DNA from: Stramenopiles sp. TOSAG23-3
Lineage: Eukaryota; Sar
Assembly (NCBI GenBank): GCA_900128585.1
Contig: LT642159.1
Span: forward strand, 1-52,562
Direction: 5' to 3'
DNA: 52,562 nucleotides
The position numbers were made by a program, and so were the translations under genes. Of the stretch, positions 1 through 34,202 are shown piece after piece; the first letter of the stretch is position 1; each line of letters starts with the position of its first letter. Below the pieces are notes generated by a model, which saw nothing but the letters and a program-made list of their open reading frames with translations, was not told the DNA's origin and did no database searches.

Positions 1-434
1 AAGAAGAAGAAGAAAAAATCAGTGGTGGTTGGATGGAGTTTAATAATAAAAAAAGAAGAAAGAAGCGATTATTATTTATTCTTCTCTTCTTTTCTTGTTT
101 TTTAATACTGCTGCTGTTAGCTTACACATTAATAATAATATATTTTTTTATTTATTTTATTTTTATTCTTGTATTATTATTAGCGCCGTAAAATAATTAA
201 AAAATAGTAGATACGTATACGGATAAAAAAATTATTACTTTGTATTTTATTTATGCTGAACGACAATGCACATAAACAAATGTATATTTTTCATTATGAG
301 ACGGTGACATCTAGATCGGAACAAACTGACAGAGAAGAAGGGTTAGGTTGAATTAGGGAAATAGTTTACTTTAATATAGTTTAGATTGAACAAAAGCAGT
401 CCGGCAGGCGTTGAAACCTTCGTGAGTCGGCAAC
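1..434. other. Intergenic, AT-rich leader of RPC1
   Basis: The window opens on a short AAG tract (1-18), then A/T-rich DNA with TTA/ATT runs. From about 300 the composition becomes more balanced, leading into the RPC1 start. I see no gene here. The last 130 bases probably hold the RPC1 promoter and 5' UTR, but I recognise no specific element. Confidence 0.6.
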
Positions 435-10477: not shown

Positions 10478-11527
10478 TCAGTCTCGCCCACCGAAAATTA
10501 TATCTTTCAGACTTGGCGTCCCGCGTTGACGCTGCAGCCGATTCTTTGTTTCTCTCGTGTGTAGAAGCTTGTAGTTTTCTCGTAGGCTGTATACCCACGG
10601 TTGATATCGCTCAGCAGGCGTAGTAGTGCTGTCATGTTTGCATGCGTTTGGTCTATTCCCATATAGATTCTCTCGAAAAACATATTTTGAGTGTCCAGGC
10701 TTCTGTAGCCATACGAATCGTGATGCCTCTACCAAAGGCATTACCCACTGCTCAAAATTTTCTACCGTAGACTCGATGAGCCCATTGCTCATATCCCTGC
10801 ACGCGTAGTCAATCGTTACTTTGTCCCCTCTCATTGCCAAAATCTTTCCTGCGATCCACCTGTCGTCTAGAGTGTCTTGAAATTCAAATTCTATGTCTCC
10901 AAGAACTAGTGACCGAATGGGGCCAACGCAGTAATCATTTATCCTAAAACCAAACCCATCTAACTGAACTTGAGAATCATCCGACCACTTAAATAATCCT
11001 TCCTGGAACAATTCAACGATTTCGAACAATGTCTCTCCACTTGCCCATATGGGCAGCGACAGTGAGTAAAGGCAATCAAATTCGATCATTATTAGATCAT
11101 CAATAGCAGAAACCACTCTCGCGCGAATCCATGAGTCCGGGTCCAACCCCTGTACATCGAATTCGGTCCCTTTTGTCTGCAGCCTCTCTTTTACCTGTAA
11201 CGCAAAAAAGACATCTATGTGCGACGGAGTGTTCTTCATGTCTTCGGGAATTTCTATATCAAGAGGGTCTGCCTTTATAGCAAAATTTTCGACGTGCCCT
11301 TCGTCGTCCTCTTCGTCAGCAAACTCTGGAAGAAGCTGTTTCCTCATTTTTCGTTCGATTTCACTCTTTTCGTAATCCAAGCATTCTTTTGCATCAAGCC
11401 CTTGCGCAATTTCTTGCATGCATTGGGGGTGTTGGACGTAGTCTACCATTCCCATCGCAGAACAACACGAAAGAAGAAACCATGTTGCAAACAGATTCAT
11501 GAATGGCGTGCACCAATTCACCGACAT
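10478..11527 (-). CDS. Unrecognised protein with two Tudor/Agenet-like repeats
   Basis: 349 aa from the first ATG (11527). I do not recognise the family as a whole. Two segments look like small beta-barrel Tudor/Agenet units: DSWIRARVVSAIDDLIMIEF at 131-150 and DRWIAGKILAMRGDKVTIDY at 222-241. Both have the W-x-x-(A/G)-(R/K)-(V/I)-(V/L) strand, a turn, then an I/V-rich strand. An acidic stretch lies at 69-80 and a basic segment near the C-terminus (329-336). The first 24 residues include a hydrophobic, Cys/Phe-rich stretch that could act as a signal peptide or anchor, which would be unusual for a Tudor-like protein. A start at M25 or M27 would remove it. Function unknown; chromatin or RNA-tail reading is only a guess. 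Confidence 0.6.
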   Translation of the reverse strand: MSVNWCTPFMNLFATWFLLSCCSAMGMVDYVQHPQCMQEIAQGLDAKECLDYEKSEIERKMRKQLLPEFADEEDDEGHVENFAIKADPLDIEIPEDMKNTPSHIDVFFALQVKERLQTKGTEFDVQGLDPDSWIRARVVSAIDDLIMIEFDCLYSLSLPIWASGETLFEIVELFQEGLFKWSDDSQVQLDGFGFRINDYCVGPIRSLVLGDIEFEFQDTLDDRWIAGKILAMRGDKVTIDYACRDMSNGLIESTVENFEQWVMPLVEASRFVWLQKPGHSKYVFRENLYGNRPNACKHDSTTTPAERYQPWVYSLRENYKLLHTRETKNRLQRQRGTPSLKDIIFGGRD

Positions 11528-12070
11528 ATGCTGTCGTTGAACGTCCAAAAATTCTGCTGCAAACACGACGTCTCGGGCTGTTCTTTTACGTTTACGTCGT
11601 CTAAAATAATTGCGAAATCTGTATTACTGCACAAAATCACAATTGTCAAGTGCGAACATAATCGTATCAGTCGGTGATAATACAAGTGTAACAACGTTTT
11701 ATTGATTGGTTTTAGCATAGGGACTAATATATATTATCATATACGACTTTTTTGCTTCTTAAAACATAACGTTTTTTTTATGGCGGCTGCTGATGAGATT
11801 CTTCTCCACCACACCCGCAGCATCGCTGCTACTTATCAGTCTTGTACCGGTACCTGGTACTTACCTGTATAAATACCGTACGGTACCCCAGGTACAGGTA
11901 AAAACACGGTATTAATACCAGGTACCGTACCAGGTACAGAACCACAGGAAATCATTTTGCCTGTATCAACGATATTTGACGATTAGTGTTCAAAATAAGG
12001 TAAGGTACATGTACAAGGTATTACTTGTTTCAAAAGCAATTAAAATTAGTTTTTTTTTAATATCATTGAC
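11528..12070. other. Intergenic with GGTACC-rich palindromic block
   Basis: Lies upstream of the Tudor-like gene and downstream of the Gly-rich gene, so it should hold the promoter of the former. Between 11842 and 11940 the DNA is dense in GGTAC/GTACC motifs that are self-complementary and could fold into hairpins. Similar patches occur near 29320, 36455 and 47455. No gene seen. Confidence 0.5.
11842..11940. repeat. GGTACC-rich palindromic cluster
   Basis: Repeated ACCGGTACCTGGTAC, TACCGTACGGTACC and CCAGGTACCGTACCAGGTAC motifs. Most are inverted copies of one another, giving many alternative stem-loops. Confidence 0.7.
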
Positions 12071-30020: not shown

Positions 30021-31685
30021 ATGTCTTCCCAACCTTGTTGGGCGGGGAATAGAGCACAAGTAGAGGAAAATGCATCAGTAACAATCCAAGCGGCCTGGCG
30101 AATGCATAACGTCTATTTAACTCATGTGCAAAAACCACGACGTGCGTTTGAGAAAATAGTTAAACAGTTAGAAAATACTTGCTGCTTGCCAGAAAGTCTT
30201 ATAGAATGTCGGTGGATTCGAAAAAACGTTTTGTGTCGCCCAACGATGGTGCTGCCTTCGATACCGTTTCAAAACGGGAGTAGGCCGGTGACAGAGGAAG
30301 TAGAAGAACAAGACCGTGGCCGTTGCGGGAAACTTATGGGCAGCGACAAGGACCTTATTGCAGAGAGCACCACACCAATCGACGCAATCAGCAGGAAGTT
30401 GCATGGAGAGGAAGACATTGAAGAGCGTGCGGCTAGTGCCGAGGTGCAAGGTACTGCTTCGGTCGATGACGTGTTTATGGAAGAGGATAGTTTAGACGGC
30501 GATTTAGAGAGTGATAGTGAAATGTACATCAACTTTGGCCATGAAACGTTAGAAACCACGTTGTTCCCTATACCAATAGTCGACCCGGTGGTTCGTGTGA
30601 TTGATGCCATCGCAGGTTTTTCTGCCTTTTCGGGATCCGGTGATGACGGAGTGGCGGAATCCGAGGATGACGGAGTGGAGGGATCCAGTGATGATGGAAG
30701 GGAGGGATCCGATGACGGAATGGAGGGATCCGATAACGGAATGGAGGAGAATCAGGCCATGCACGTAGAAGGTTTGTTGGAACAGATTCAACCGACACCA
30801 GAGTACCGCGTTAGTACAGAAATAGATATTTCACCGCAGACGACAAGTGAAGAGAAAGATCAAAACGGATTTTCCGACGAGGAATTAGGTTCTTGCCTGT
30901 CAGAACCTAAAGGTATAGAGAGCGGAACTGTGCAGGTGGAAGTGCAATGTGGGTCGGAGGAAAGGAACGAGGTGGCAGAGATAGAAGAGAATTTTGCAGG
31001 AGATGCGGAGGATCCTTTTAGGGAACAAAATGACGCTTTACCGATTGTGTATGAAAACAAAAATGCAGGCGGTGAAGTCCCCAACGTAGATCGATTGGTA
31101 GCAGTACCAATCGTAGAAATTATACGGGACGAATCTGCCGATGATCGAGCTGGAGAGGACCCAATGGTCGAAGATAGCGTTCGTGACGTGGAATGTATTG
31201 CTCTAAACGAAGAGGACGATGCGACTCCCACAGGGGAATCCCCGAAAAGCCAAGCCAAAGATACGACCACAGAAATTAGAGCGGAAGTATCGGCAAAGCC
31301 ACAAGCAGAAAATTTTGACGAAAGCCTAAACGAAAGATCAGCTTTAAGTGCAGTTGAATTTGCAACCGAAATAAATTATGAAAGCGAGGGGGTGATTGCG
31401 AAAACCGACAAAGATGATTGCTCCATCATTGCAGAGCCAGGCAACATTTCTTCTAGTGTAGCAGATCGAACTGGCACTAGCAATCCCCATCATAGTACCT
31501 TGTATTCTGTTAAACATGCTAGCCCAACTACGGAATTCGACCGAAAGGATCGCATGTTTAGCCCGGAGCGATTTCTGAAGCTAGTATCTCCAACAAAACG
31601 AAAACTTATCAGTGAGGAAGAAGATTACGATGACTCAAACGACGAGCCCATCGAAGTGTGCAAAGACGAGGAAGATTTTCCTTGA
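30021..31685 (+). CDS. Acidic disordered protein with N-terminal IQ motif
   Basis: 554 aa. Residues 18-34 form a plausible IQ calmodulin-binding helix (SVTIQAAWRMHNVYLTH). The segment that follows (AFEKIVKQLE ... IECRWIRKNVLCRPTMV) distantly recalls the region after the IQ motif in IQCC-like proteins. The rest is strongly acidic and low in hydrophobics, hence probably disordered. A short repeat, (G/E)S(D/S)DDG(V/R/M)EG, occurs about five times near 208-240 and is encoded by a GGATCC-containing DNA minisatellite (about 30640-30750). A Ser/Pro- and acid-rich C-terminus contains SPERFLKLVSPTKRKL. No catalytic domain is seen. A Ca2+/calmodulin-regulated scaffold is only a guess. Confidence 0.68.
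   Translation: MSSQPCWAGNRAQVEENASVTIQAAWRMHNVYLTHVQKPRRAFEKIVKQLENTCCLPESLIECRWIRKNVLCRPTMVLPSIPFQNGSRPVTEEVEEQDRGRCGKLMGSDKDLIAESTTPIDAISRKLHGEEDIEERAASAEVQGTASVDDVFMEEDSLDGDLESDSEMYINFGHETLETTLFPIPIVDPVVRVIDAIAGFSAFSGSGDDGVAESEDDGVEGSSDDGREGSDDGMEGSDNGMEENQAMHVEGLLEQIQPTPEYRVSTEIDISPQTTSEEKDQNGFSDEELGSCLSEPKGIESGTVQVEVQCGSEERNEVAEIEENFAGDAEDPFREQNDALPIVYENKNAGGEVPNVDRLVAVPIVEIIRDESADDRAGEDPMVEDSVRDVECIALNEEDDATPTGESPKSQAKDTTTEIRAEVSAKPQAENFDESLNERSALSAVEFATEINYESEGVIAKTDKDDCSIIAEPGNISSSVADRTGTSNPHHSTLYSVKHASPTTEFDRKDRMFSPERFLKLVSPTKRKLISEEEDYDDSNDEPIEVCKDEEDFP
30640..30750 (+). repeat. Coding minisatellite (GGATCC units)
   Basis: About five imperfect tandem units of 18-24 bases with a GGATCC-GATGACGGA core, all in frame with the IQ-motif gene. 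They encode alternating Asp/Gly/Ser/Glu. The unit length is a multiple of three, so copy-number changes keep the frame. Confidence 0.8.
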
Positions 31686-31967: not shown

Positions 31968-34202
31968 TCACAGTCTGCCAGCAATTCTCCCCCTCGACCT
32001 ACCCCCACCCCCAGAGCCATCCCAGGGAAGCGGTGCAGCCCTCTTAGGACCATTCCACATAGGAGGTGGTGGAGGCGGAGAAGGAGGAGATTCTTCCTTC
32101 TTCTCGTCTTTGTCAAATTCACCAGCATCACCGTTTGTCAATGACCCAGAACCTATCATGTCACTCGCTAGAGACAAACGTACGGCCTTCTCGGTTATTT
32201 GCAATGCCAAATGTGGCTCTAGCTCATTGGAGTTGTAAAGCGTTTCGCCCTTGTTTGACAATTCCGTATCGTGCTTTTCGCCTTTCCCCCATACCTTTAC
32301 AATGGCAGGATGGGGCGCCCTTGGAATCTCTTGATTACTGTAGCAAAAATCGTGCTCAGACTCCTCCGAGCAATCCACAATGCCAATACGGGCCATCCCG
32401 TTAAGGGCAGCACCCAATCGCAGCATATTAGTAGAAGCAGTTTTACACGACGAACAATCCAGCCCGTCAAGAAAGCAGACGACCCAAAACTCCGTGGTGT
32501 TCAAAACAGTCCGTTGGAAGTTTGAGTGATTTAAACGTACCAGGTTCGAATTCGCAAATAGGTATCGCCATTCTTTTTCCACCTGGCGAGCCCATTCACT
32601 AATCCCAGCAACGTCTTTGTTTCCATGGTATATCTGCTGAGTTCCAAATTCATTGTTCAAAATCATAATGGTGGGGTACGAGGGAATATCGAACCATTCA
32701 GAGCATACCGTAGATGATTTTTCACAATTGACAGCACCGATTTCAATCGAGTCAAGTTTAAGTTCTTCCGCCAGCTGTTTCCATTTTGGCACCAGGGATC
32801 GACAGTGAGAGCACCATGGGGCATAAAATTCAACAAGCCAGATCGACTCTCCTCGGATGCGGCGATCCCAGAGTTTTTCGTTCAGCTGCGTAATTAGTGG
32901 ATGGTGAGAGTAAAAATCTCGAGTGTCCTTTTCACCACTTTGTTCGTACTCCCAAAACGTATTAAACCCCCCATCGTCCTTATCAGTGGACCCATAATCG
33001 TCAAAGGCAGCACGCTTGTCCGGGTTCCCAATTACTTCATACGCCGCAACGATGTCTCGAAAGGCAGCTAAGGCCGCCTCTCTTAGAGAGGCAGGGTTTT
33101 TGTCGGGATGAAGCCTAAGGGTCAAGTGGCGATAGGCTTTTCTAATTTCTTTGCTCGTAGCGCCTGATGAAACTCCAAGCGTCTCGTACGGAAAACTGGC
33201 CCCGTGACACTTCCCTAACGTGCCTGACTCACTAGCAATTTTGGCCCGCTGTTCAATTTCCTGCGCACGCTTAGCCCGCTCTTTTGCTTCCTCTTCACTT
33301 AATTTGCTCTTTGATTCGGTGTCTTCTTCAACGGACTCCTGCTTCACCCTCTCCAGCTCTTCCAATTGCCTCGTTTCCAATCGGGCTTTTGCACGCAGTT
33401 TCGCCTCTTCGATTTCCATACTGCCTGCTTTTTGATTACATACCAGCGCGCCATCGCTATTTCCGATTCCAGACCCGCCCGCGCAACTGGACACATCAAG
33501 CTGCGACGGGCGCGAAGCCCCGTTACTACCCATGCACCCAGCACAACGCAGCAGCAGCGTTTCTTTGTCGTACAGGCACTCGGTGCACGAGTCTTTGTAC
33601 GTTCCAGCGGGAAGTTTGTCATTTTCAACACTCCCACTTTTTAGCAATTTTCTCCATTTGTGAGCGTCCCTGTTGTCTTCTTCTGATGGACAGGTGCTGT
33701 GCTTTCCAACTTTACCAACGTGGTCGTGGTCCCCACGGCAGACCCATGCAATATCTTCGATGCAACGTCGCCCAGCAATACACCAGCCGCAGCCGTTAGC
33801 TCGGCAAAGGTTGCAGTTTAAATAGTTCGCACAATTAATCGATTCAGGGCTTTTCTGCTCACCGCTGTCTTCAAGAAAATTCGAAGGGGATGAGGTTGGA
33901 TTCTCAGACTCTGCGGCCCTTTCGTCCTTCAGAAACTTAGGAAGTTCGACTTCTCCGTCATCATTAATGTATACATCGTAGTACTGGTTTGATTTTTCAA
34001 ACACGCGCTTCAACAGGTCATGCGCATGGCTCAACTTCGCAATAGCGTCATCAAGGGTTACAATATTTTCGGCACTAAGGTCCGTCGCCAATACTTCGCG
34101 CACACTATCAACAAGTTTTTCGTCCTTGATATCGTACGACGTGACCAATAACACACCAAAAAGGAAGACGCAACAAGGAAGCAAAGAACGCAAAAGGTTC
34201 AT
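31968..34202 (-). CDS. Secretory-pathway J-protein with PSI, cyanovirin-like and thioredoxin domains
   Basis: 744 aa. Signal peptide 1-22. Cys-rich PSI-like module at 124-171 (CANYLNCNLCRANGCGWC ...). Residues 198-256 resemble half of a cyanovirin-N homology fold: AGTYKDSC, LLLRC, SQLDVSSC, GNSDGALVC. A charged coiled coil spans 262-325. A J-domain follows at about 336-405 with an intact HPD (365-367). A thioredoxin domain (about 450-545) has active site WCSHC (463-467) and cis-Pro P510. A second thioredoxin-like domain (about 545-650) carries DCSSC. The C-terminus is Pro- and Gly/Arg-rich, without KDEL. J plus thioredoxin domains recall ER folding/ERAD reductase ERdj5. The added lectin-like module suggests glycoprotein substrates (inference). 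Confidence 0.9.
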   Translation of the reverse strand: MNLLRSLLPCCVFLFGVLLVTSYDIKDEKLVDSVREVLATDLSAENIVTLDDAIAKLSHAHDLLKRVFEKSNQYYDVYINDDGEVELPKFLKDERAAESENPTSSPSNFLEDSGEQKSPESINCANYLNCNLCRANGCGWCIAGRRCIEDIAWVCRGDHDHVGKVGKHSTCPSEEDNRDAHKWRKLLKSGSVENDKLPAGTYKDSCTECLYDKETLLLRCAGCMGSNGASRPSQLDVSSCAGGSGIGNSDGALVCNQKAGSMEIEEAKLRAKARLETRQLEELERVKQESVEEDTESKSKLSEEEAKERAKRAQEIEQRAKIASESGTLGKCHGASFPYETLGVSSGATSKEIRKAYRHLTLRLHPDKNPASLREAALAAFRDIVAAYEVIGNPDKRAAFDDYGSTDKDDGGFNTFWEYEQSGEKDTRDFYSHHPLITQLNEKLWDRRIRGESIWLVEFYAPWCSHCRSLVPKWKQLAEELKLDSIEIGAVNCEKSSTVCSEWFDIPSYPTIMILNNEFGTQQIYHGNKDVAGISEWARQVEKEWRYLFANSNLVRLNHSNFQRTVLNTTEFWVVCFLDGLDCSSCKTASTNMLRLGAALNGMARIGIVDCSEESEHDFCYSNQEIPRAPHPAIVKVWGKGEKHDTELSNKGETLYNSNELEPHLALQITEKAVRLSLASDMIGSGSLTNGDAGEFDKDEKKEESPPSPPPPPPMWNGPKRAAPLPWDGSGGGGRSRGRIAGRL

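Follow-up and report, generated by a model that had tools for sequence, protein, structure and literature searches.

Contig LT642159.1 of the draft assembly GCA_900128585.1 of Stramenopiles sp. TOSAG23-3 (52,562 nucleotides, analyzed in full and hereafter the window) encodes a 744-residue protein that resembles the endoplasmic reticulum (ER) J-protein ERdj5 in joining a J-domain to thioredoxin domains, and that also carries a PSI-like block and one cyanovirin-N homology (CVNH) repeat. Profile comparison across the protein's relatives shows that residues 198–256 are homologous to a single CVNH repeat. The most likely reading, which we put at an even chance, is that this is a secretory-pathway co-chaperone and disulfide reductase of the ERdj5 type with a sugar-reading head of its own; it is supported by the CVNH homology, the predicted fold, the architecture of J and thioredoxin domains, the equivalents of two microvirin residues (N44, kept, and T59, conservatively replaced), and the N-glycan genes of the same genome. 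An initial annotation of the window had proposed such a protein. Its central observation, a CVNH-type repeat within an ERdj5-type J-PDI, is borne out, and its suggestion that misfolded clients are recruited through their glycans stays conjectural.

Evidence for a single CVNH repeat

The case for CVNH homology is built on a family profile, because the fragment from the window, searched alone against the PDB with phmmer, retrieves no CVNH protein and a sole match to a ribosomal protein (E 1.4). When a profile of nine modules was searched against the PDB, with matches taken up to E 10, nine of the 12 matches were CVNH proteins, among them all of the top four, namely microvirin (E 3.8e-6), TbCVNH (1e-5), CrCVNH (2.8e-4), and a designed CVNH (1.5e-3); the other three were ribosomal bL36 (best 0.051). 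Two column-shuffled profiles gave best E values of 0.97 (one match) and 0.28 (seven matches) and zero CVNH proteins. Divided by clade, the profile that includes the window sequence (three sequences) has CrCVNH as its best match at E only 0.043, and that of the other clade (seven sequences) has TbCVNH as its best single-stretch match (4.1e-5). WD-40 repeat proteins rank higher in the latter search (to E 2.5e-16), and none of them has a stretch that passes individually; we attribute their scores to the summing of numerous weak copies.

The initial annotation had named a CVNH profile search as a check, and the outcome is divided: the nine-module profile establishes homology, and Pfam CVNH (PF08881) remains under its curated cut-off of 24.5 bits. 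The family is absent from the Pfam listing for the whole protein and is the sole one listed for a 75-residue fragment (E 0.071, 14.3 bits, profile positions 1–49 of 102). Five of the nine modules are listed as CVNH (best E 0.0014, under the cut-off), as are three of ten whole homologues scanned (P0003, P0005, and P0013; maximum 16.5 bits, always in the first half of the profile), these ten comprising nine module bearers and P0009, which lacks the module. Matches extend only from positions 1–3 to 49–53 of the 102, and the ten sequences aligned (P0001, P0003, P0004, P0005, P0010–P0013, P0020, and P0021) each contain a single copy, in place of the two tandem repeats (~100 residues) of CVNH proteins. 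By Pfam cut-off and repeat number, residues 198–256 are therefore a homologous single repeat and not a full CVNH domain, in keeping with the annotation's remark that only one repeat was visible. The six cysteines of the repeat lie at 206, 209, 220, 223, 240, and 255. Within the draft genome (12.9 Mb in 660 contigs) a single-sequence search finds the module once, and a CVNH family search of the whole genome returns no candidate, missing even the module at residues 198–256.

Predicted fold and closure of the repeat

In two AlphaFold runs the repeat is built of three strands together with a turn and a hairpin, and the predicted structure contains the three-stranded sheet and hairpin that characterize CVNH proteins. 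Comparison with cyanovirin folds, which the initial annotation had advised, was made with Foldseek: ranks 1–22 are all CVNH structures, none with E below 0.001, and rank 23 follows at E 1.9. That the CVNH likeness is a chance property of a cysteine-rich stretch is accordingly judged exceedingly unlikely, given that nine of 12 profile matches and the first 22 fold matches belong to one family with an abrupt drop thereafter, that the column-shuffled controls yield no CVNH protein, and that the first three matches in a viral fold library are annotated Cyanovirin-N.

The modeled stretch (57–58 residues) aligns to CV-N chain ranges such as 2..101 over 48–53 residues at 1.7–1.9 Å. From these ranges we infer that, in the model, the stretch must overlie the sheet of the first repeat plus the hairpin of the second, which together make up one structural half, and that its own hairpin is folded back; such an arrangement fits the large root-mean-square deviation of sequential Foldseek alignments. 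The hinge cysteine is separated from an invariant Asn by 6–8 residues in the nine modules caught by the search pattern (and by eight, counted by eye, in the tenth, P0005, which the pattern missed), compared with two in TbCVNH, and the first repeat of microvirin requires a 6-column gap at the hinge when aligned to the modules. Given the lone repeat and its lengthened hinge in all ten of the aligned homologues, the repeat probably closes on itself, and it is predicted to fold as a single unit of three-stranded sheet and own hairpin beside the PSI module.

Alternatively, the repeat could be open, with two chains swapping hairpins to build one classical two-lobed CVNH, so that the protein would be dimeric by necessity and possess two sites for sugar. 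CV-N itself, whose site A combines N- and C-terminal residues, can dimerize by 3D domain swapping, as described in PMC4926178, and AlphaFold was given one chain only. The longer hinge, however, should favor a closed monomer, and the model fits CV-N ranges such as 2..101; we regard the swapped dimer as quite unlikely.

Domain architecture

An intact ATG-initiated reading frame fills the interval exactly, and the plus strand across 31968–34202 is interrupted by stops in the same frame. The frame is not an assembly accident, since public protein clusters hold a full-length copy of 100% identity (P0002, from ENA) and relatives P0003, P0004, and P0005 with 59%, 54%, and 44% identity over 95–98% of the length. 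Its features are as follows.

31968..34202, minus strand: whole open reading frame, 744 residues; ERdj5-type J-PDI with PSI and one CVNH repeat
34137..34202, minus strand: hydrophobic N-terminus, probable signal peptide, residues 1–22 (by eye; model helix 9–22, low confidence)
33690..33833, minus strand: PSI-like block with eight cysteines, residues 124–171
33435..33611, minus strand: single CVNH-type repeat ("hemi-CVNH"), residues 198–256 (profile against PDB with shuffled controls, Pfam fragment match below cut-off, two AlphaFold runs, fold matches)
33231..33413, minus strand: long helices, residues 264–324 (model helices 264–293 and 303–324)
33000..33191, minus strand: J-domain, residues 338–401, with HPD at 365–367 (Pfam DnaJ, E 3e-18)
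32589..32891, minus strand: thioredoxin domain, residues 438–538, with CSHC at 464–467 (Pfam Thioredoxin, E 2.8e-24)
32232..32543, minus strand: second thioredoxin-like domain, residues ~554–657 (two Pfam Thioredoxin stretches; order of strands and helices in the model)
31971..32060, minus strand: C-terminal tail with conserved WNGP, residues 715–744 (alignment; disordered in the model)

Several elements named in the initial annotation are recovered here: J and thioredoxin domains in one protein, the HPD motif inside the DnaJ match, WCSHC in the thioredoxin domain, and, in the second thioredoxin-like domain, CSSC (583–586), which forms the start of a helix in the AlphaFold model. The same model places the two long helices ahead of the J-domain, in the stretch that the annotation had called a coiled coil. 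The cysteine-rich block that had been likened to PSI contains the eight cysteines expected of that fold (124, 130, 133, 138, 141, 147, 155, and 171); Pfam lists PSI (PF01437) at 123–152 with E 0.018 and 15.8 bits, short of the cut-off of 23.1 bits, which the scanned homologues also fail to reach (closest P0013, at 22.6 bits).

Candidate sugar site

In the account of PMC11768445, binding of microvirin to gp120 depends on N44, Q54, and T59 as essential residues, with contributions from N55, E58, Q81, and M83. When residue correspondence is anchored on the cysteines, N44 becomes N248, an Asn in all nine modules and part of an N-x-[DN]-G hairpin; T59 becomes S205, before the first cysteine (Ser in eight of nine modules, Asn in P0005); and E58 becomes D204 (Asp, Glu, or Gln in six of nine). 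The three essential residues are thus represented by one invariant, one conservative, and one lost position. The cysteine pattern of the modules, CxxC...C-x(1,2)-C, is close to that of the second microvirin repeat, and PMC7077325 describes a variant of microvirin in which domain A is present twice (two inter-strand disulfides modeled in each copy) and both sites bind mannobiose. The site residues and the analogy with this variant permit, and do not prove, mannose binding.

The main rival to a glycan-tethered reductase, which we consider rather unlikely, is that the CVNH-derived repeat has lost its lectin function: stapled by its disulfides and lying next to PSI, it would have a structural or protein-contact role, either positioning the J and thioredoxin domains or docking a partner protein. 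The six cysteines are invariant in all nine modules while the contact positions vary, as seen at the E58, Q81, and M83 equivalents, and the adjacent PSI is not known as a sugar-binding module. Set against this, the Asn of N-x-[DN]-G and the Ser preceding the first cysteine both map to essential microvirin residues, though the two may also be conserved for folding.

Homologues and spread of the module

In the alignment, neither PSI nor CVNH is seen in P0008, P0014, and P0017, and P0006 begins too late to be judged. Two further searches with the PSI and CVNH region returned no additional protein, and the tree of homologues does not decide between a single gain of the module and several. P0008 and P0017 carry other cysteine-rich stretches ahead of the J-domain, with no Pfam family up to E 0.5; exchangeable modules may occupy this position. 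In the viral fold library, the first three matches of the PSI and CVNH model are proteins of Powai lake megavirus, Tupanvirus deep ocean, and Moumouvirus goulette, annotated Cyanovirin-N; the viral matches cover 84–102 alignment columns. Exchange with viruses of this kind is conceivable.

Genomic context and cellular location

Neighboring genes encode the largest subunit of RNA polymerase, splicing-factor families, and prolyl-tRNA synthetase, and the gene content is eukaryotic. Two further open reading frames of the window, at 30021–31685 (plus strand, 554 residues) and 10478–11566 (minus strand, 362 residues), match nothing in Pfam at a threshold of E 0.001. Genes for N-glycan handling are present in the genome (three GH47 matches, two glucosidase-II-beta-like reading frames, and one of the calreticulin family).

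At the C-terminal tail (residues 715–744; 31971–32060, minus strand), WNGP occupies the usual place of KDEL. It occurs in seven of eight aligned rows judged to reach the true C-terminus, a count that leaves out P0017, whose end looks out of frame; it is absent in P0014 and present in homologues without the CVNH repeat. At the other end, as judged by eye, the residue just after the probable cleavage site of the signal peptide (residues 22–23; 34134–34139, minus strand) is Tyr or Trp in all ten module bearers; this is not seen in P0007, P0008, P0009, and P0014.

It is very unlikely, in our estimate, that the same chemistry is performed elsewhere, with the protein secreted or residing in a different compartment; the aromatic residue behind the probable signal peptide led us to consider one related to plastids. 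The lack of KDEL, the aromatic residue in all module bearers, and the conserved WNGP tail speak for such a location. The architecture of J and thioredoxin domains, with ERdj5 as nearest relative, nevertheless fits the ER, and no chlorophyll-binding family match was found in the draft genome, an absence that is weak evidence since the assembly may be incomplete.

Proposed mechanism

For the ERdj5-type co-chaperone with a sugar-reading head, the following division of labor can be envisaged. On misfolded clients, the hemi-CVNH would bind the terminal mannose residues of N-glycans; BiP, the ER Hsp70, would be recruited by the J-domain; and incorrect disulfides would be reduced by the CXXC thioredoxin domains. 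Glycan recognition would thereby be part of the same chain, and such a protein could keep hold of glycosylated misfolded clients during their dismantling. The fuller proposal, in which a self-closed one-repeat cyanovirin gives an ER J-protein and reductase its own glycan receptor, and a single chain combines mannose reading, BiP recruitment, and disulfide cleavage, is put forward tentatively, as something short of probable.

A number of observations count against the reading as a co-chaperone and reductase with a sugar-reading head. The essential Q54 of microvirin is replaced by Gly in eight of nine modules, and the equivalents of Q81 and M83 are not kept. Homologues P0007, P0009, and P0015 have PSI without the CVNH module. 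The C-terminus reads GRIAGRL, without KDEL, as the initial annotation had remarked, and a KDEL-type retention signal seems to be in use in the genome, as a glucosidase-II-beta-like reading frame (L013, 40–1971) ends in RDEL. No STT3 match was found in the draft genome, where absence is weak evidence, and with GH47 and glucosidase-II-beta-like genes already present the genome does not need a further glycan reader.

Comparison with known systems

Among CVNH proteins, a family whose fold is known from mannose-binding lectins, microvirin (PDB 2y1s, 2yhh) is the best profile match, and the likeness extends to the CxxC...CxC pattern of its second repeat, the retained N44 equivalent, and the conservative T59 equivalent. 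TbCVNH, CrCVNH, and the fungal CVNH-LysM proteins (2jzk, 2jzj, 2l9y) have two repeats each, whereas one is present here; in the LysM type, as PMC4926178 describes it, the repeats are split by an inserted LysM domain. The hemi-CVNH would be the smallest natural CVNH unit and a direct test of one repeat folding and binding sugar alone. Relative to the PSI domain of plexins and integrins (3okt, 5l74), the block here scores below the Pfam cut-off.

By its combination of J and thioredoxin domains, the nearest relative is ERdj5/DNAJC10 (PDB 5ayk, 3apo, 3apq), with which the protein shares an HPD-bearing J-domain followed by a CXXC thioredoxin domain. ERdj5 has six tandem thioredoxin-like domains, four with CXXC (PMC10591012). 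Those six are arranged in two clusters, whereas two such domains are seen here, and the present protein adds PSI, the CVNH repeat, and long helices before the J-domain. It also lacks the C-terminal KDEL in which ERdj5 ends. Animal ERdj5 is held to obtain glycan recognition by partnering EDEM. How a glycan signal reaches the chaperone and reductase stage of ER-associated degradation has been studied mainly in animals and yeast, and a protist lineage may have fused glycan reading and this stage in one protein; if so, the protein would merge roles that animals divide between EDEM-type glycan readers and ERdj5.
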